From: Bacteroidales bacterium
GTDB lineage: Bacteria > Bacteroidota > Bacteroidia > Bacteroidales > JAAUTT01
Reading direction: 5' to 3'
Assembly: GCA_012031335.1 (NCBI GenBank)
Contig: JAAUTT010000031.1
Coordinates: 1 to 14,087, forward strand
DNA length: 14,087 bases
Below the pieces are notes generated by a model. It was not told the DNA's origin, did not search any database, and was given only the letters and a program-made list of their open reading frames with translations. Position numbers and translations under genes: made by a program. Position 1 is the first letter of the stretch, and each line of letters opens with the position of its first letter. Below are positions 3,053 through 12,902 of the stretch, one piece after another.

Positions 3053-3080
3053 CCTCACATAATTTTCACAAAAACTTCTT

Positions 3081-4241
3081 TCAGGAATTTATCTTCCAGG
3101 AGTCGAGCAATTCTGCGTGCAACTGTGCGTCGTATTTCCAGTTCCCGGGGAATTTTTGGGTCGTGATGGGGCCGGAATTAATACGTGTGCCAATCAGAAA
3201 ATGAATTTCATCCGATTCCAGGAGAAGCTTTACAATCTGATCAGCAGGGCCTTTCCCGATCATGCTGGCTGGAGTATTATCTTTAAGGAGATTGTTGACT
3301 TTGCTAAGTGTCAGAATTCCTTCGGTTACCAGGTCGATTCCATCCATGTACGAAACAGGCGGGAGATCGGGATCGTCGAACTGCTGACCTTCGGTAATTT
3401 TTATCCCAAGCTGGCTGGCAATGATATCGCTTGTAGTGGCGCCGCAAATAATTTTTTTCCCTTTGAAGTTTTTAACAATCTTAGCCATATCGGCATCGCT
3501 GAATTCTTCATATGGTGGTCCGCTGCAAAGCAGTAAACGCCTGGGATGACGCATATAAACCGCAGCACACGAAATATCGTCTTTAGCTTTGTAACCATCG
3601 TGCTGATAGGCCATGTTTACTAATTTGGAAGCCAGTTTTTTAGCTGAAATGGATGGCTCGTTTGTGAGAAGTTTTATAATAAACCCGGATATCTGATCGA
3701 GGCTCCAACCCAATGGAAACTTTACCGAACCCGTACCCGACTGAAGCACACCATCGCTGAAAAAGACAATTCTGTCCTCGCGATGTGTTTTAAAGGTGCA
3801 GGTTCTGATTTCTTTACCTGAATTTTTTGAACTGGTTAAGATAATACATTGCCATTCAGGTTCAATAATTTTATTCCCCCGGAATATAAGACACTCAGGA
3901 TTTCCGTATTCAATTATTTGTGTAGCGCCATCGTATTCAATATTAATAATGGTAAATGTTGAATAGCTCATATTGCGGTCGCTGCACACGGGCAGTGTGT
4001 TCATGATTATTTCGGCAATGGTGTTGGGGTCCTCGTGTTCCATGGTGAATCTCAGCGCCATGGTTGAAGTGAGTGTGGCCAGAACATTGGCTTTTACTCC
4101 ATGACCCATACCATCCGAAAGAACGGTTATCACCCTGTTTTCTTCGGGAATTCGTTTCGACAGGAAAACATCGCCACAAATCCGTTCTCCATTGTAATTT
4201 CTCTGCTGGCAATTTACTTCTATGTAAAAACCTTCTGTCAT
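3081..4241 (-). CDS. SpoIIE/PP2C-family serine/threonine phosphatase with extra C-terminal domain, hydrogenase-linked
   Basis: An intact 386-residue protein. Residues 1-230 are a SpoIIE-type PP2C phosphatase: the metal-binding acidic sites appear as CGD at 22-24, SDGMGHG at 42-48, FSDGV at 161-165 and KDDIS at 220-224, so it should be catalytically competent. It has no receiver, PAS, GAF or membrane segment of its own. Residues ~235-386 form a separate domain, with landmarks LLLCSGPP, ICGATTSDIIA and DLPPVSYMDGIDLVTEGILT, which to my memory is also found in phosphatases next to PAS-containing iron hydrogenases in Clostridia. The start (ATG at 4239-4241) lies six bases after the repaired stop of the hydrogenase gene, which points to translational coupling. 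I infer that it is the output enzyme of a two-protein redox or H2 signalling unit; its phosphoprotein target, perhaps an anti-sigma-factor antagonist, is not in the window. Confidence 0.87.
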   Translation of the reverse strand: MTEGFYIEVNCQQRNYNGERICGDVFLSKRIPEENRVITVLSDGMGHGVKANVLATLTSTMALRFTMEHEDPNTIAEIIMNTLPVCSDRNMSYSTFTIINIEYDGATQIIEYGNPECLIFRGNKIIEPEWQCIILTSSKNSGKEIRTCTFKTHREDRIVFFSDGVLQSGTGSVKFPLGWSLDQISGFIIKLLTNEPSISAKKLASKLVNMAYQHDGYKAKDDISCAAVYMRHPRRLLLCSGPPYEEFSDADMAKIVKNFKGKKIICGATTSDIIASQLGIKITEGQQFDDPDLPPVSYMDGIDLVTEGILTLSKVNNLLKDNTPASMIGKGPADQIVKLLLESDEIHFLIGTRINSGPITTQKFPGNWKYDAQLHAELLDSWKINS

Positions 4242-4247
4242 ATCGAT

Positions 4248-6120
4248 TTATGAGAGTCTGTTTTGCTTTTTTCCTATACCACCCTTATACAATCCTGCTA
4301 TGGCGTTCAACATCTGTTCGGTTTCGGCAGCGCTTTCGCCCAACAAAAACCGATTTTCTGAACCATTTCCAGGTTTTTATCAATAACCTCATCAATACGT
4401 TTCAATACTTCTTCTTTACGTACTTCAGGAGAATGGACATCTGCAATAACGGCACCTGCAACTGATCCTTTCTGAATGGTAAATACCGAAATGTTATACA
4501 ATTCCTCGTTAAAATGAATGTCCCGTTTCTGGATATCCTCGCCATTCAGCAGTACAAACGAAAAGAGATTATAAATAGGGAATGGCAAAAGCGTTTTCAG
4601 GTCGGCGCCGGTTAATCCGGGAATAACCTCATTTATTTCGGCGGCTTCAGGACCAAGAAACTTGATAAAACTCTCGTTGGTATGCAGAATTGTAAGTTTA
4701 TCATTCACGATCACCAAACTCGAAGGAAGCTTTTGCAGCATTGCCTCCATGGTGGAATAAGCCTGTTTGGCCAGTTGCTGCTCCCTTCGGGCACTGTTTT
4801 CCGACTCTCTCAATGCTTCCTTGGTTTTTTCGAGTTGATCGTTGATGGTCTGGAGGTGCTGTATGGAATTTTGACGGCTTTTTACAGCATGTGTAATGCA
4901 CATTTCTGTTGTGGTAAGGCCTTTAACAACATTGGTCGCAAAATCGTAACAGGTATTGTATCCACAGGCTCCGCAACCCAGATTGTCGTCGAATTCATCC
5001 TTACCCATGGCGATCATTACTTCCTTCACCTTATCACGGGGTGGTTGTGCAATGCGCTGGTCGTCGGCAATAAATGAAGTGGATAGATCGAAATGGAGAT
5101 AGTGTTTCAGTTCTTTTTCCCATTCCCGCTTATTGAAAGTTTGCAAACGTTTATTGGCATAGTTAACCACCAGTGTTCGCCTGAAGAACCTGTCGCCCCC
5201 TCGCGAAGTCCCAGGCCCCATTATACACCCGTGATCGTAAAATACATTGAAATGTCTGTTAATTACCTGGGAATGATCTGCAAATTCTTTTACTGCCTTT
5301 ACCATGGTACTTCTTCCTTCGGCTGTAATTACCGAACCTGTAAGCAGGTCCTCGCTAATGTCGGCAGCCTGTAGAAACCCGTTACTGATAGGATACAGAG
5401 AGCCTTTGCGGCCAAATGGTTTGTCGAAATCTCCATACTCATGTTTGCCCTCGGTAATACCAAATTCCTTGAAAAGTTCTCGTAATTCTCTGAAGGTAAT
5501 CACCGAATCAATCCGGGCTTTTTCGGTATACCTGAGAGCTTCCTTTTTGTTGGCGATACAAGGACCAATATAAATAATGGCTGTTTCGGGACCATACAAC
5601 TGATGAATTACCATGGCGGTAGCAATCATGGGAGTTACAATGGGAGCGAGGTTGGGTATAAGTTCCGGAAAATACTTTTCAATATATAATATGAGGGCGG
5701 GGCAATTTGCTGTGAGGTAGTATTTTCCTTTATTGTTTTCGAATAGTTCGGCATATTTATGAGCCACCAGGTCGACACCAAAAGAGGCTTCATTTACATA
5801 ATGAAATCCCAGTGCCCGTATCATTCCACAAATTTGCGGTAATCGGTAATATCCGAGAATTCTCCCGAGATGCTTGGACCAACTATGGCAGCTATTTTTC
5901 GTCCCGATTTTAGCAGGGCTTTGGTTTCTTCTTTGGAATCGTAATAAACAACAGCTTCAGGACCGCATACTGTAACACAGCTTCCGCATCCAATACACCG
6001 GTTATGCAATATTTTCGGATAATCGTCCGTTAAATCCATTTTAACGGCTTTAACCGGACAAACCCTAACACATGCATAGCACTTAACACATTTATTATGG
6101 ATAATTTCTATCAGGTTCAT
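4248..6120 (-). CDS. Putative sensory [FeFe]-hydrogenase (HydS/HsfB-like): 2x[4Fe-4S]-hydrogenase core-FeS-PAS, two frameshifts
   Basis: Two reading frames (6120-5821 and 5824-4307) join at a GAATGAT, where one missing A would restore the frame. A second lost base in the homopolymer at 4345-4349 replaces the true C-terminus; repaired, it reads GFLLGESAAETEQML and stops at 4248. The whole protein is about 624 residues: a 2x[4Fe-4S] ferredoxin (CVKCYACVRVCP near 11-22, CIGCGSCVTVC near 42-52), an [FeFe]-hydrogenase large-subunit core (~75-330), a small FeS domain (CGACGYNTC near 383-391 plus a Cys near 408), a coiled coil (~420-460) and a PAS-like domain (~465-560). This is the architecture of sensory group C hydrogenases. 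H-cluster motifs are altered: TANCP instead of TSCCP, GPCIANKKE for the second, and YDHGCIMGPG for the third, with one expected Cys not evident. It probably senses redox state or H2 and signals to the adjacent phosphatase. No signal peptide, so cytoplasmic. Confidence 0.85.
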
Positions 6121-6275
6121 CGGAAGTTGTTTTGGTTTAGAAACTAAAATATTAGCACGGAATCAACAATTAGTCTAAATGATAGCCATGTTAAAACTAA
6201 TAAAAATTTAGGCCAGGCACAAGGATCGGAAATCACAAATATTAACTTTACCATAATTAACCAAGTATTGTAACG

Positions 6276-8531
6276 ATGAAGAAGAGTATAGTATTAATCT
6301 TAATGATCGGCTTAACCTTAACTGAACTGTTTTCTCAGGAATCTGTCAAATTAATCAGAGATTTAAGTTTGAAAATTGATACCGGAAGATACTACCTGTC
6401 TCGTCACACTGTTGACCAGAACGGAGAACGAAAGCTTTATTTCAGTTTTCAAAGGGAAGATGAAGTTTGCGAGTTAAATATCTATCCTGCCGATAAGGAT
6501 AAAATTAAAGGGATTCAGTTATTGGGGGCAGCCGATTTTGTAACCCTCGATTCGCTTGTTTTTGTTAATAACGAATATTACCGTATCCGACTGAGATTTG
6601 TAAACCTTTTCAAAAGTCAATTTCTCAACTTTACCTTCTCGGCTAATGTTGAGGGAGTTGAGAAACCTGTGCTGGAAGAAGTGAAGCTTTTGCCTTTCAC
6701 CCAAACCAAGCTTGCTTTTGGACCGGTTAACGACGATTTGTTTATTGGCGAAGAAAAAGTTTTTGAGCTTATTACCAACAATTTAAAAAACATCCGCATC
6801 ACAAACGAATGGTCGAAGGATCAGGATATAAACTACAGGGTTGTAGAAGAAAACGGAAAAACTGATGGTACATCTGCTACCCATAAGTTCTGATAACAAA
6901 GAGGTGAAAATAAGGCTGCAAACATTTGTTCCCTATATTACTCCCGACAGGCAGATTTCGTATGATATTCCACCTGTGCGACAGATGTTCAGGGTTAAAA
7001 CTTCCCGGCTGGTATTTCTTAACCCCGATAAACAGGAAATCACCTTTGACGAAAGTACACGTTTGAACGGTATAGAGATTCAGATGGACAACGGCAGGTT
7101 TTTAACAGTTGGAAAAACATACCGCATCGAGAATCAGGAACAACCGGGAGGTGCGCTTATCGCTGAGCTTTTCACCAAAAGCAATCTTACAAACGATAAA
7201 ATGCTCTGTATTTTCCGGCCCTTTAATTTTCACCGGAAAACATCAGGGGTACCTTTATATCAAAGATGGCGATGTTCCGCGTTTTGTGACTAATTGCGAT
7301 ATAACTCCTAAAACTTCTATAACGTCAGTTATGGTGATGCACGAAGGCGGAGACTGGACATCGAACCTCACCATTTATCCTGGCGAAACCGTAAATGTAA
7401 AAGTTGAAGGGGAAGGACTTCATAAGGCTCGTTTTCATTGGGAAGATGTGCTCGATATTACTTCCGATACAGTTATCAGAAGCGAAAACCTGTGCTTTTT
7501 CCGGTTGAAAGTGCCTATGAATATTGCCAAACGCAGAATTAACCTGTACAATAATGTTACCAATACCGGAACTGCCTTAAACATTCGGGAATATCAGGTT
7601 CCCCCGGAAAATGGATTATGTCAGTCTTAATTTTGGAACAGGCAGCAGGGTGCTTGCCAATATGACGCCAACCATTATCCAGAGAAGTACCATTAAGGAT
7701 ATAACGCTTAATTTTGATAATAATAAAATTGATGCAGGCGATAAACTCTATGGTAAACAATACCTCGATGTGGATATCCGGTTACTTGGAAAGAGAGGGG
7801 AACTCATCGAAATGAAAACAATACGCAATGTGTTGGTTTGCCCGGGCGATAATTCTCCACGATCTATATATTATAAGGATAAAGCCGGCATTACATCGCC
7901 AATAAGCGTGAATAGCATGCTTGGAAATAAAACATATAACCTTGAGGATTTCTCAAAAGTTCAGATGACCTTTAAAAACCAGGACGATAAGTATGGCGAA
8001 TCAGGTTACGAAAAACAAATTGAAATTGTCCTTCAACGTCCTGTAATATTCGATATTGATGTGTCGTTCCCTGCGGGCTTGATGATTCAGAACCTGGGAA
8101 AAACGAAATCGGAGCAGGAATTATTCGATGCTTACGATTTAAATTATAATCAATATGAACTTGACCTGGAGCGATATAAAAAGGGCGAAATTGTTGTTAG
8201 TCCCACTGTACCTACTAAACCCAAAAAGGCTGCATTTACCGACAATCTAGGTGGTATCAGTTTGGCGCTTATTGCTCAATTCAGTTTTCCCGATGCCGAA
8301 AAGGTGGGTAAACTCAAACCTTACCGCATAGGTGCCGGATTTCTTGCTATCAATACCTTTAATTTCAGCGATGGTGCAAAACGCGATCTGGCAGCAGTAG
8401 TGCTTGCAAGTTTATACCCGATAAAGCCCGGAAGAGTATTTAACTTACCCATTCATATTGGTTTCGGTTATAAATTTCAGGATGCCATTCCTTTCCTGAT
8501 GCTTAGTCCAGGCATTGGAGTGCGGTTTTAA
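6276..8531 (+). CDS. Large exported protein of unknown function with C-terminal outer-membrane-type beta strands, three frameshifts
   Basis: Four overlapping frames tile this span without gaps and join at short homopolymers: A-run 6857-6861, T-run 7211-7214 and the C/A runs at 7601-7610. Removing one base at each gives a single protein of about 750 residues. It starts with a signal peptide (MKKSIVLILMIGLTLTELFS, then QES). The middle is rich in alternating beta segments that suggest several Ig-like or similar sandwich domains (for example DWTSNLTIYPGETVNVKVEG), and a Pro/Lys linker (SPTVPTKPKK) precedes the last ~100 residues. These are short amphipathic strands ending in ...MLSPGIGVRF, with a terminal Phe as in outer-membrane barrels. 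I do not recognise the family and assign no function. It is probably anchored in the outer membrane with a periplasmic body. It is divergent from the hydrogenase gene across 155 bp and ends in a strong terminator, so it is probably transcribed alone. Confidence 0.75.
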
Positions 8532-8673: not shown

Positions 8674-10109
8674 ATGCGAATAGAAAGTGATGCCATCGGA
8701 GAGTTGCCCGTTCCTGCCGATGCTTTGTATGGGATACATGCTGCACGAGCCAGGGAGAACTTTCCCGATCACACCGCATTTTTTATGGAATGGTTTAGGT
8801 CGGTTGGAGTCGTTAAACACTCCTGTTATCTTACATACCAAAGGTTTAAAGAAACAGCGCTTGAAAACAAGTTAACAGCATCATTCAGGTGGATTGACAA
8901 TGATATAATCTCGGCTCTGATTCAAAGCGCCACGGAGGTTTCGGAGGGTTTACATTTTGAACATTTTATAGTTCCGGCTGTGCAGGGTGGTGCCGGTACA
9001 AGTATAAATATGAATGTTAATGAAATAATTGCCAACAGAGCTTTGTTACTGATGGGGAAAAAGCCGGGAGATTATGCTTTTATTGGTCCTATAGAACATG
9101 CAAATGTTTTTCAAAGTACCAACGATGTAATTCCTACCGCGCTAAAGGTTGCTGTCATGCAACTGCTGAATGAACTTGAAACAGTTATCAATCAGTTGCG
9201 GCAATCGGTCGAAAATATTGAAGCCAAACACAGGAACCATTTACGCATAGCATATACTCAGATGCAGGAAGCTGTTCCCTCCAGCTTCGGGCGATTATTC
9301 AGTACCTATTCCGATGCACTGTCGCGCGACTGGTGGCGGGTGTCCAAATGTTCCGAGAGAATCAAAACCGTAAACCTGGGTGGTGGTGCAGTGGGGACAG
9401 GGATTGCAGTTCCGCAGTTTTTTATTATGCAGGTAGTGAGCGAACTGCAGCATTTAACAAAGCTTCCTGTAACCCGGGCCGAAAACCTCCAGGATGCAAC
9501 GGCTAACAACGATTCATTTGTCGAGGTACATGCAACACTCAAAGCACATGCAGTAAATCTCGAAAAATAGCTAATGACCTCCGATCGCTTTCATCCGATT
9601 TAGGTCATAAAGATATTTCTATTCCAAAAAAGCAGACAGGTAGCTCAATTATGCCAGGGAAAATTAATCCTGTAATTCCTGAGTTTATAATAAGTGCTGC
9701 ACGTAAAGTATATGCCAATGATCACCTTATTACTGATCTGGCAGCTATGGGATGTCTCGACCTAAATGCTTATCTTCCGTTGTTAGGACATGCATTGATT
9801 GATAGCCTGAAGTTACTTGTTGCAGCCGGCAAAAGTATGCACTTTCATTTACTGGAAGGGCTCAGTGTGCATGGAGAGGTAGCGCTCAACAGGCTGCTGC
9901 ATAGTCCCTCGCTTACAACAGCATTGGTACCTTATTTGGGATATAATACCGCCGCTTTACTTGCCGCCGAAATGAAAGAGAGCAATTCCGGTATTTTTGA
10001 AGCCAATAACAAACTCAAACTTATCGGGGACGATATACTCCGAAAAATTCTGGAACCTTCAAGGCTACTGAGGCTGGGGTATTCACTTAACGACACAACC
10101 AATGATTAA
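8674..10109 (+). CDS. aspA: Aspartase-like lyase (fumarase/aspartase superfamily), one frameshift
   Basis: Two frames (8674-9570 and the frame ending at 10109) join at the A-run 9563-9567; adding one base turns a TAG stop into EKIANDLRSLSSDL and restores a ~478-residue protein, the normal length. Superfamily motifs are present in order: DALYGIHA (16-23), GGAGTS (105-110), STND (148-151), GGGAVGTGI (236-244) and the signature GSSIMPGKINPVIPE near 323-337. A Gln follows the Thr at 195-196 (TQMQEAVP) where fumarases have His, and NPVIPE ends the signature; both point to aspartase (L-aspartate to fumarate plus ammonia) rather than fumarase. The N-terminal ~60 residues differ from well-studied AspA, so this may be the divergent paralogue that in some anaerobes sits within hydEFG hydrogenase-maturation clusters, as I recall them. 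It overlaps the flippase start by eight bases, suggesting co-translation. No convincing ribosome site precedes the ATG. Confidence 0.8.
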
Positions 10110-11291
10110 AAATTATATGATTACCATCGGTAGTCGTTATTTTATTGCATTCATGAACCTTGCTCTTATTATCCTGTGTTCACGCTATCTGGGAGCCGAA
10201 GGCCTTGGATTTATCAGTCTTTTTGTACTTGGACTTGCACTAAACAACCAGGTATGTAGTTTCTTCGGAGGTAGCGCTCTGGTTTATCTTGCTCCACGTA
10301 AAAACCTTGCAACATTAATTTTTATCTCATATACAGGAGCAACAATTATGCATATGGCACTTGTACCGCTTTATCTGTGGCTGAAGCCGTTTGATATTGT
10401 ATATTTTCCCGAGTTCTTTATCATTTCTCTTATGAATGTGTATTTTTCAACAAATCTTTCCTTGTTATTAGGAAAGGAAAAAGTTGAAACATACAATGTT
10501 TTAAGTGTATTTCAGATTTTATTGCAAGTATTGATTTTCGGATTGTTTGTTTATAAACTGGAAAAGATATCCGTAAATCATTATATAATTGCAAGTATTA
10601 TATCCTATTTTATGGCTATGGCAGGCAGTGCGGGTATACTTATGAATAATATTCCGCGTCGTACCGAAGAGTTATTTCAGACTATCAAAGAAATTTTTAA
10701 GTATGGATTTTTGCTGAGTCGGGAAATATACTGCAACTTTTGGCCTATCGTTTAAATTACTTCGTAATTAACAAATGGCTCGGATTGGCGGCATTGGGAG
10801 AGTTTTCACTTGCTGTTCAGCTTACCGAAGGATTAAGACTCTTCAGCAAAGGCGTTGCCACTGTAGAATATTCCTATTTTTCTAACTCCGACTCCTTTAA
10901 AGAAAACGTTGCCATTACCCGGAAATCAATTGTATATAGCCTTGTTTTCACTTTTACAGGACTGTTGGTTTTATTGGTTATACCCACCTCGGTTATTCAA
11001 TCATTTTTCGGAGAAGAGTTTCACCAAACCCGGTTGATAGTTTCTTTATTAGCTCCTGGAATTTTGCTGTTAAGTGCCGGAACTATCATTACTCCCTTTT
11101 TCTCGGGGCAGGGTAAGCATTATGTTAATGCCATAGGTTCAGCTATTTGTTTTATTGTAACAGCTTTGCTTTCGTTTATACTCATTCCATGGCTTGGAAT
11201 ATCAGGAGCCGCTATCGTTAATACACTTGCTTACAGCGCCCTGACTGTTTATCTGTATCTTACCTATAAGAAGCATCTACGTTTTATATGA
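10102..11291 (+). CDS. Wzx/MATE-type polysaccharide flippase, one frameshift
   Basis: Frames 10102-10755 and 10740-11291 join at about 10716-10723, where one missing base gives LLSSGNILQLLAYRLNYFVI, a typical mid-protein stretch of polysaccharide biosynthesis flippases (an SG..QLL.YR..YF pattern). The repaired product is about 396 residues and almost wholly hydrophobic, with roughly a dozen predicted membrane helices, an N-terminal SRYLGAEGLG element and a C-terminal WLGISGAAIVNTLAYS element characteristic of the MATE-like Wzx group. These proteins move lipid-linked glycan units across the inner membrane; the glycan here is unknown. It is slightly shorter than usual. The ATG lies inside the last codons of the lyase gene, so the two are probably in one operon, although no shared pathway is obvious. 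No clear terminator follows in the 168 bases before the next gene. Confidence 0.85.
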
Positions 11292-11956: not shown

Positions 11957-12430
11957 ATGAGAGCGAACATCGAAATATCCGAAGCGAATCTAAAGGAGTC
12001 GGCAACACTTTTGAATATTTTACTTGCTGATGAATATGTTCTATACACAAAAACCCGAAATGCTCATTGGAATGTTCAGGGTTCTGGGTTTTACGAGCTT
12101 CATAAGTTTTTCGAAGATCAATACAATGAACTTGCCGAAATAATCGATGAAGTGGCTGAAAGAGTAAGGATGTTGGGCCATTTTGCACTGGGAACAATGA
12201 AGGATTTTCTGGCAGTAACCCGAATGAGTGAGAGTAATTATGAATTCACAAATCAGCAGCAGATTATCAAAACATTACTCGACGATCATGAAACTATAAT
12301 ACATTCTCTCAGAAGTGATGCCATGTCAGTGGCAGACAAACATAAGGATATCGGTTCATCTGATTTTTTGACAGGAATGCTCGAAAGGCATGAGAAAATG
12401 GCCTGGATGCTTCGTGCACATTTATCTTAA
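11957..12430 (+). CDS. dps: Dps-family DNA-binding ferritin-like protein
   Basis: An intact 157-residue protein with the Dps signature AHWNVQGSGFYELHKFFEDQ. The inter-subunit ferroxidase ligands are all in the right spacing: H37, H49, E53, D64 and E68 correspond to the His/His/Asp/Asp/Glu set of Listeria Dps, with Glu in place of the third ligand. Members form 12-subunit shells that oxidise Fe(II) with hydrogen peroxide and store the iron, protecting DNA during oxidative stress and starvation. The N-terminus is short and has only modest positive charge, so DNA binding through a tail is uncertain; ferroxidase function is better supported. The start at 11957 follows the preferred stop of the coiled-coil gene by 38 bases, and lmo0937 follows after 10 bases, which supports one operon. 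No operator is recognisable. Confidence 0.95.
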   Translation: MRANIEISEANLKESATLLNILLADEYVLYTKTRNAHWNVQGSGFYELHKFFEDQYNELAEIIDEVAERVRMLGHFALGTMKDFLAVTRMSESNYEFTNQQQIIKTLLDDHETIIHSLRSDAMSVADKHKDIGSSDFLTGMLERHEKMAWMLRAHLS

Positions 12431-12623: not shown

Positions 12624-12902
12624 ATGAGTGTAGGTAAAGTTTTATTAGGCGTATTGGCAGGTGTTGCCGCAGGTGCTTTAATCGGGATTCTTTTTGCTCC
12701 CGATAAAGGTTCGGAAACAAGGAAAAAGATAATGGAATCCGGCGAGGATATGGCAAATTCGGCCAAGGAAAAGTTTAATGATGTAATGGATAATGTTAAC
12801 GAACGTGTTAACAGGGTAAAAGAAGGAATTGGTAATGTTACCGGAAAAGCAAAAGAGACTGCTGAAGGGGCTAAAAATGCTACCCGTTCGGCAACAGCTT
12901 AA
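12624..12902 (+). CDS. YtxH-domain protein
   Basis: A 92-residue protein with one N-terminal Gly/Ala-rich membrane helix (VLLGVLAGVAAGALIGILFA), the conserved APDKGSETRKKI segment that defines YtxH, and a long helical tail built of short amphipathic repeats (KEKFNDVMDNVNERVNRVKE, then KAKETAEGAKNA) resembling LEA-type sequence. YtxH proteins are induced by general stress in Bacillus and are common in Bacteroidota, but their function is unknown; the tail suggests a membrane-tethered, loosely folded helix. It follows lmo0937 by 36 bases and is probably the last gene of the dps cluster, followed by a hairpin at 12954-12988. Confidence 0.92.
   Translation: MSVGKVLLGVLAGVAAGALIGILFAPDKGSETRKKIMESGEDMANSAKEKFNDVMDNVNERVNRVKEGIGNVTGKAKETAEGAKNATRSATA

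Follow-up and report, generated by a model that had tools for sequence, protein, structure and literature searches.

A phosphatase-linked, HydS-like protein of Bacteroidales with altered residues at the H-cluster site

Results and discussion

The gene pair and its reading frames

The window, i.e. the whole stretch of DNA analysed (14,087 nucleotides of a Bacteroidales contig), carries a real two-gene pair coding for a HydS-like protein with a hydrogenase domain and for a SpoIIE/PP2C phosphatase. The pair probably represents a redox-signalling unit related to HydS-phosphatase and HfsB-HfsC and operating without a standard catalytic H-cluster. The pairing itself is already known (HydDB group C3, Ruminococcus albus, HfsB-HfsC) and, for Firmicutes, the signalling idea has been published; what appears to be new is the loss of H-cluster-holding residues in the version of this pair found in the Bacteroidales lineage. 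A description of the pair in Bacteroidota was not found in the literature searched, most subscription papers being outside its scope.

The HydS-like protein is composed, in this order, of a two-cluster ferredoxin, the hydrogenase domain, an FeS motif of the type Cx2Cx4Cx16C, a long helix, a PAS-like domain and a C-terminal tail. Pfam scans of 13 ORFs in the window placed Fer4 at 6120-5821, Fe_hyd_lg_C and the FeS part at 5824-4307 and SpoIIE at 4241-3081 (all minus strand). The pair consists of the following pieces:

5821..6120, minus strand: 5' piece of the HydS-like gene (99 aa); two-[4Fe-4S] ferredoxin domain (8/8 Cys present; Pfam Fer4 families) and start of the hydrogenase domain; corresponds to residues 1-99 of the intact L001 relative
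4307..5824, minus strand: main piece of the HydS-like gene (505 aa); hydrogenase domain, FeS motif, long helix and PAS-like domain; final residues out of frame
4248..4349, minus strand: final part of the HydS-like gene, coding for the C-terminal tail and read in a third frame; its end is six bases away from the phosphatase start; located by tblastn with residues 592-622 of the L001 protein
3081..4241, minus strand: phosphatase ORF (386 aa); SpoIIE/PP2C domain, PF07228

An intact, syntenic relative of the pair is present in locus L001, the neighbouring genes of which match those of the window too. As judged by tblastn with its proteins, the hydrogenase gene as sequenced lies in three frames and the phosphatase gene in two. 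A preliminary description had reported a ferredoxin-hydrogenase-FeS-PAS protein followed six bases later by a SpoIIE/PP2C phosphatase. Domains and domain order were borne out by Pfam, whereas neither gene reads as one protein as sequenced, the PAS domain remains below the Pfam cut-off, and the six-base spacing is true of the third frame only, the gap from the stop of the 505-aa ORF being 65 nt. The close homologues listed are mostly single proteins (hydrogenase ~617-633 aa; phosphatase 393-402 aa, ~394), and P0017 (352 aa, 98% identical over the covered part) reads on through the C-terminal break of the HydS-like gene. Beyond the pair, genes at 6276-7294 (three frames, tblastn) and at 8674-10109 and 10102-11291 (by ORFs) are split as well, which suggests an error-rich assembly; because of these splits, sequencing error is the likelier cause of the frame changes. 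The window sequence was taken as is and the frame changes were left unrepaired.

The overlapping or adjoining split ORFs at 6276-8531, 8674-10109 and 10102-11291 correspond to an unassigned gene, a Lyase_1 gene and, as judged by eye, a flippase-like gene, respectively. A DUF7033 protein (709-2157), a ferritin-like (Dps-type) protein (11957-12430) and a YtxH-like protein (12624-12902) are also encoded in the window.

Conservation of the pairing and genomic context

Genome contigs were scanned with the hydrogenase alignment alone, and the best 80 of 562 relatives were kept as loci; group names in their record titles, where given, are those of Bacteroidota. Among these best 80 of 562, the phosphatase gene is located directly downstream on the same strand in 78 loci, corresponding to 78 of 79 testable ones, with L072 cut by the contig end and L063 devoid of a phosphatase. 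The gap between the two genes has a median of 2 nt (range -143 to 219 nt; best 80 of 562), the most negative values probably being ORF-start artefacts. Such pairing is far beyond chance, and the lack of conserved pairing in related genomes, named beforehand as an outcome speaking against the unit, did not come true. In a class-wide sample of 296 genomes, the protein occurred in four, the relative itself included. In L063, an opposite-strand gene occupies the place where the phosphatase would be, and the HydS-like gene (5704-7548) keeps Cys at the L3 site.

When the window was searched by tblastn with the HydA, HydB and HydC sequences from two relatives, only the pair and chance matches were returned. 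The reported lack of a catalytic partner thus holds for the window; among relatives, the pair is usually divergent to hydrogenase genes, a HydA-like gene being located upstream on the opposite strand in 54 of the 59 loci with at least 4.9 kb of upstream sequence (21 of the best 80 of 562 being too short). A second sensor-type hydrogenase (B, as opposed to the phosphatase-linked A) is present in 51 of the best 80 of 562 loci and truncated there by the end of the locus. For three of them, the B protein was completed from the genome (G018, G017, G011; 660-664 aa) and proved to be a hydrogenase-HisKA-HATPase fusion; the other 48, judged by similarity, would represent the same kinase fusion.

The genome of the nearest relative (G001) encodes HydF, HydG and five Fe_hyd_lg_C proteins, among which are two group-A-like HydA, and on account of these maturases the host is predicted to be capable of making H-clusters. 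A lack of maturases in the hosts was considered and rejected: HydF scored over cut-off in 47 of 50 genomes (covering 50 of the 80 loci) and HydG in 26 of 29 (covering 29 of the 80). The gaps look like incomplete assemblies, because each maturase is present where the other is missing (three genomes in either case).

A kinase or substrate partner was also sought via HATPase_c_2, which was of little informative value, being found in 6/6 genomes but also in 12/14 controls. A PAS-less sensory hydrogenase beside HydABC, which we take to be 'group D', was observed in L104 (10383-13878), L102, L103 and L105, in all four accompanied by small proteins presumably containing DRTGG and PHP domains. An RsbW-like ATPase (HATPase_c_2) is also encoded nearby in L104 and could be a kinase opposing the phosphatase.

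Active site of the hydrogenase domain

The hydrogenase H-domain is present in the window protein. Its active-site positions are given below by residue of the 505-aa ORF (locus counts for the best 80 of 562); numbering of L1-L3 beyond C299, M353 and M497 in CpI is our assumption, and CpI K358 is taken to be the lysine that holds the diiron site.

5702..5704, minus strand: Cys41, equivalent of CpI C300 (L1), kept; Cys in 80/80 loci
5558..5560, minus strand: Cys89, equivalent of CpI C355 (L2), kept; Cys in 80/80 loci
5549..5551, minus strand: Asn92 at the CpI K358 position, Lys gone; Lys in 1/80 loci
5234..5236, minus strand: Asp197 at the CpI C499 position (L3), cubane cysteine gone
5225..5227, minus strand: Cys200, equivalent of CpI C503, bridging Cys kept; Cys in 80/80 loci

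Three of the four H-cluster cubane cysteines (C41, C89, C200) are therefore present, with D197 at the fourth position, and the group A catalytic set C299, M353, K358 and C499 is represented by N40, G87, N92 and D197. No other Cys precedes the FeS motif in the 505-aa ORF, and no Cys column replacing the lost C499 equivalent was found in the alignment of 198 relatives. Among these 198, which are not independent, the C499 equivalent is Asp or Asn in 68 and Cys in the other 130. In G018, G017 and G011, from which B was completed, the A protein has Asp or Asn at this site. The proteins of L001 and P0004 are of the Asp type, whereas P0061 and the protein of L011, a locus of the cultured Perlabentimonas gracilis, are of the Cys type.

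The K358 equivalent is Lys in only 1 of 80 phosphatase-linked loci (best 80 of 562) versus 51 of 51 B paralogues, in which the L3 Cys is kept as well where readable. HydA has Lys (52) or Arg (8) in 60 of 63 cases, and the three Firmicutes HydS all have Lys and keep the fourth cubane Cys. Since Firmicutes HydS and the B paralogues keep both residues, the loss of standard-site residues appears to be specific to the phosphatase-linked branch of Bacteroidales. The Pfam match to Fe_hyd_lg_C points in the same direction, stopping at 220-227 of 245 in four Asp-type proteins and reaching 245 in 5/5 Cys-type proteins.

Alignment at L3 requires some care, the motif being mostly C-x2-C in A and B proteins versus C-x3-C in HydA and Firmicutes HydS; in seven relatives, an extra residue places Asp at the canonical x3 spacing. 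Position 197 was taken as the ligand because Cys is constant there in B, whereas position 196 varies. That the first Cys of the 'CC' in B is the true C499 is unlikely, as this position is occupied by C (21), S (6) or G (2) in 29 proteins and the next always by Cys; whichever alignment is chosen, Cys is missing from the L3 site of the window.

In a tree of 31 rows, the A proteins form one clade (100/100), joined with B (99/98) and apart from Firmicutes HydS; these rows do not settle the branching within B. Repeated loss of the Cys was not demonstrated (5 changes on 131 rows; 3 for Cys versus non-Cys on 54 rows), and a single clade of non-Cys rows was not rejected (p-AU 0.33, 54 rows). The idea that the Cys/Asp/Asn state tracks linkage to HydA was dropped for want of a clear pattern. 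No report of sensory hydrogenases with Asp or Asn at the fourth cubane site was found in the literature searched, a weak negative given its incomplete coverage. A cubane ligand can be changed in a hydrogenase (e.g. Cys to His) with altered activity, shifting bias and overpotential, according to the available text of PMC11376134.

FeS motif, linker, PAS-like domain and tail

The C-terminal half of the HydS-like protein comprises:

4898..4975, minus strand: Cx2Cx4Cx16C FeS-cluster motif of sensory hydrogenases (C284, C287, C292, C309), as given in PMC8163306; all four Cys in 80/80 loci (best 80 of 562)
4733..4897, minus strand: long linker helix from the FeS motif to the PAS-like domain; modelled by AF2 in P0004 as helix 409-463, with pLDDT <50 over part of its length
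4433..4732, minus strand: PAS-like domain; sub-threshold Pfam PAS and AF2 secondary structure of P0004

The Pfam PAS match of the window (PF00989) is below cut-off with E 0.052, as is that of the R. albus HydS PAS, and the AF2 model of the close relative P0004 displays a PAS-like order of strands and helices at 464-563. In the same model, the tail (564-626) has pLDDT <50. Compared with the three Firmicutes HydS, in which about 38 linker residues are absent according to the alignment, the tail is 29-37% identical (14-18/49), the PAS-like domain 15-21% (14-19 of ~91), the hydrogenase domain shares 60-76 of 249-265 residues and the ferredoxin and FeS parts 17-21 of 56. The tail is thus better conserved across phyla than the PAS or hydrogenase domains and about equal to the ferredoxin and FeS parts, and we propose it as the predicted contact with the phosphatase. 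The idea that the tail strictly indicates a phosphatase next to HydS is weakened by Acetoanaerobium noterae, the HydS of which keeps the tail with no phosphatase adjacent. In this organism, HydS (L100, 7995-9701) and a phosphatase of the same family (L106, 4382-5563) are encoded about 0.9 Mb apart; the partners may work unlinked.

The ferredoxin part of the electron path also varies among loci: in 27 of 80 loci (best 80 of 562), Ser, Asn or Thr takes the place of the second Cys in its first [4Fe-4S] motif; the window retains this Cys.

The phosphatase

The phosphatase is composed of two parts:

3546..4241, minus strand: PP2C/SpoIIE phosphatase domain with D24, D43-G44, D163 and D221-D222
3058..3545, minus strand: conserved C-terminal phosphatase domain without Pfam match; frame changes near the end

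Alignment with SpoIIE identified D43, G44 and D163 as equivalents of the metal-site residues D628, G629 and D746, and D222 is presumed from its position in the family to be that of D795. These residues are intact, being constant in 77-78 of 78 loci (best 80 of 562), including Gly44, the match of the glycine switched in SpoIIE. According to the available text of PMC5468089, D628, G629, D746 and D795 coordinate the metals of SpoIIE, and its metal-binding glycine is moved by a helical switch.

SpoIIE and RsbU-type PP2C phosphatases share the metal-site residues and fold, whereas the window phosphatase has its own C-terminal domain of ~160 residues without Pfam family, its regulator presumably being a separate protein. 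Of the aligned residues of this domain, 50/161 are identical between P0122 and R. albus. The sole near-significant non-PP2C match by Foldseek was methylglyoxal synthase (E 4.8e-3), and the VIA rows barely cover this part.

Comparison with known systems

In R. albus 7, HydS and the SpoIIE phosphatase (WP_013483411, WP_013483412; pRUMAL01) are adjacent and located downstream of rex and adhE, together with a 4Fe-4S dicluster gene which we take to be hydA2. The pair agrees with that of Bacteroidales in the order of genes and domains, in the FeS motif and tail of HydS, and in the phosphatase as a whole, C-terminal domain included; both proteins align over their full length. Apart from this gene neighbourhood, differences concern HydS, which is 26% identical to P0061, keeps Cys, K358 and the C-x3-C motif at L3, and has ~38 linker residues fewer. 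The plasmid pRUMAL01 carrying this pair (L099) is typed mobilizable.

A mechanism of H2 sensing by R. albus HydS and phosphatase has been proposed (ISME J 2019, as far as available). The available text of PMC5707799 calls the gene adjacent to R. albus HydS a 'kinase', as proposed by Zheng et al.; the R. albus record for the same neighbour names a SpoIIE phosphatase.

That some group C hydrogenases occur next to phosphatases, as stated in the preliminary description, is confirmed by these systems and by HydDB, which defines group C3 as 'phosphatase-linked (putative)' (PMC5037454, available text). Group C3 and the window have in common the hydrogenase domain, sensory architecture, FeS motif and adjacent Ser/Thr phosphatase, a likeness by features; the window differs by the cubane Cys replaced by Asp and the lost K358 equivalent.

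HfsB-HfsC of Thermoanaerobacterium, described in the available texts of PMC11837493 and PMC5707799 as a PAS hydrogenase and a serine phosphatase homologue, resembles the window pair by description (sensor and phosphatase in one operon), and is distinguished by an operon shared with the catalytic hydrogenase HfsD. In T. saccharolyticum, deletion of hfsB raised adhE expression and ethanol, unlike that of hfsC, which left adhE unchanged and diverted flux to lactate (PMC5707799, available text). For hfsB, this is genetic evidence of a regulatory role (PMC5707799, PMC11837493). HydS of Thermotoga maritima is likewise a PAS-containing sensory hydrogenase, and about half of its class, like the window, has Gly at the M353 position; in contrast, its H-cluster cysteines and the residues hydrogen-bonding the diiron site are reported as conserved, and its H-cluster is functional (PMC10055695, available text).

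Proposed mechanism and alternatives

From these observations we infer a cluster content, a signal, a physical contact and a target for the pair. Given the lost lysine and fourth cysteine, with host maturases still present, sensing of the redox state would probably involve FeS clusters or a strongly modified H-cluster rather than one of the standard type. Electrons would enter the ferredoxin-like clusters of the HydS-like protein and pass to the hydrogenase-type domain, which, with one cubane cysteine now Asp and the K358-type lysine gone, would most likely contain a [4Fe-4S] cluster whose fourth site is either bound by a carboxylate or left open. The redox state of the hydrogenase-type domain would then pass along the FeS domain, the linker helix, the PAS-like domain and finally the conserved tail, reaching the PP2C phosphatase; this enzyme would dephosphorylate a Ser/Thr-phosphorylated regulator, fermentation and hydrogenase genes being likely targets. 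The differing deletion phenotypes in T. saccharolyticum argue against a simple linear path from sensor via phosphatase to gene, because loss of hfsB raises adhE and loss of hfsC does not. The earlier idea of a redox signal passing through the pair is thus strengthened by the conserved pairing and the full-length alignment with R. albus, and its H-cluster half is weakened by the presence of only three of four cubane cysteines and the absence of a K358 equivalent.

A true H2 sensor, in which Asp would serve as fourth cubane ligand of a complete, tuned H-cluster and H2 binding at the diiron site would drive the phosphatase, is unlikely, even though the other three cubane cysteines including the bridging one persist in 80/80 loci (best 80 of 562), the fourth is replaced by Asp or Asn only, as though a side chain capable of ligation or hydrogen bonding had to be there, Asp attains canonical x3 spacing in seven relatives, hosts carry maturases, and bias and overpotential have been shifted by engineering of such a ligand (PMC11376134, available text). 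The K358 equivalent is gone in 79 of the same 80 loci, Lys and Cys are retained by the three Firmicutes HydS and (51/51 for Lys, where readable for Cys) by B, and the Pfam match ends before L3 in the Asp-type proteins examined. A protein acting mainly in electron transfer or as catalytic partner, with the phosphatase co-transcribed and without functional contact, would agree with the rich FeS content, the frequent location beside hydrogenase genes and the differing hfsB and hfsC deletions; the near-universal tight pairing, the PAS-like domain, the lost catalytic residues and the genetics of hfsB (PMC5707799, PMC11837493; available texts) make it very improbable. Hardly credible is a decaying remnant with a vestigial hydrogenase domain: three frame changes across the pair, read as real lesions, and lost active-site residues could be taken this way, but the splitting of other window genes points to sequencing error, one break is bridged by P0017, and relatives have intact genes with constant FeS cysteines and phosphatase residues.

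Beyond the redox-signalling unit as such, the Bacteroidales branch may have given up the standard H-cluster, the fold now being an H2-independent FeS redox switch or holding a natural H-cluster with an Asp/Asn-site cubane, while the site for hydrogen sensing would be retained by the kinase-fused paralogue of these genomes; we regard this wider proposal as evenly poised. Against a lost H-cluster count the 130 of 198 relatives keeping the fourth Cys and the HydF and HydG genes of most hosts, in which an H-cluster could be made.

Significance

H2 sensing by group C proteins is unproven, and in the present branch a cubane ligand varies naturally in the way that protein engineers have varied it by hand, within intact phosphatase-linked pairs and in genomes whose kinase-fused paralogue keeps the site. 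Comparison of A with B would be a direct test of whether signalling needs the H-cluster. If the site holds no diiron cluster, annotation as 'hydrogenase' would overstate H2 metabolism in Bacteroidota metagenomes.
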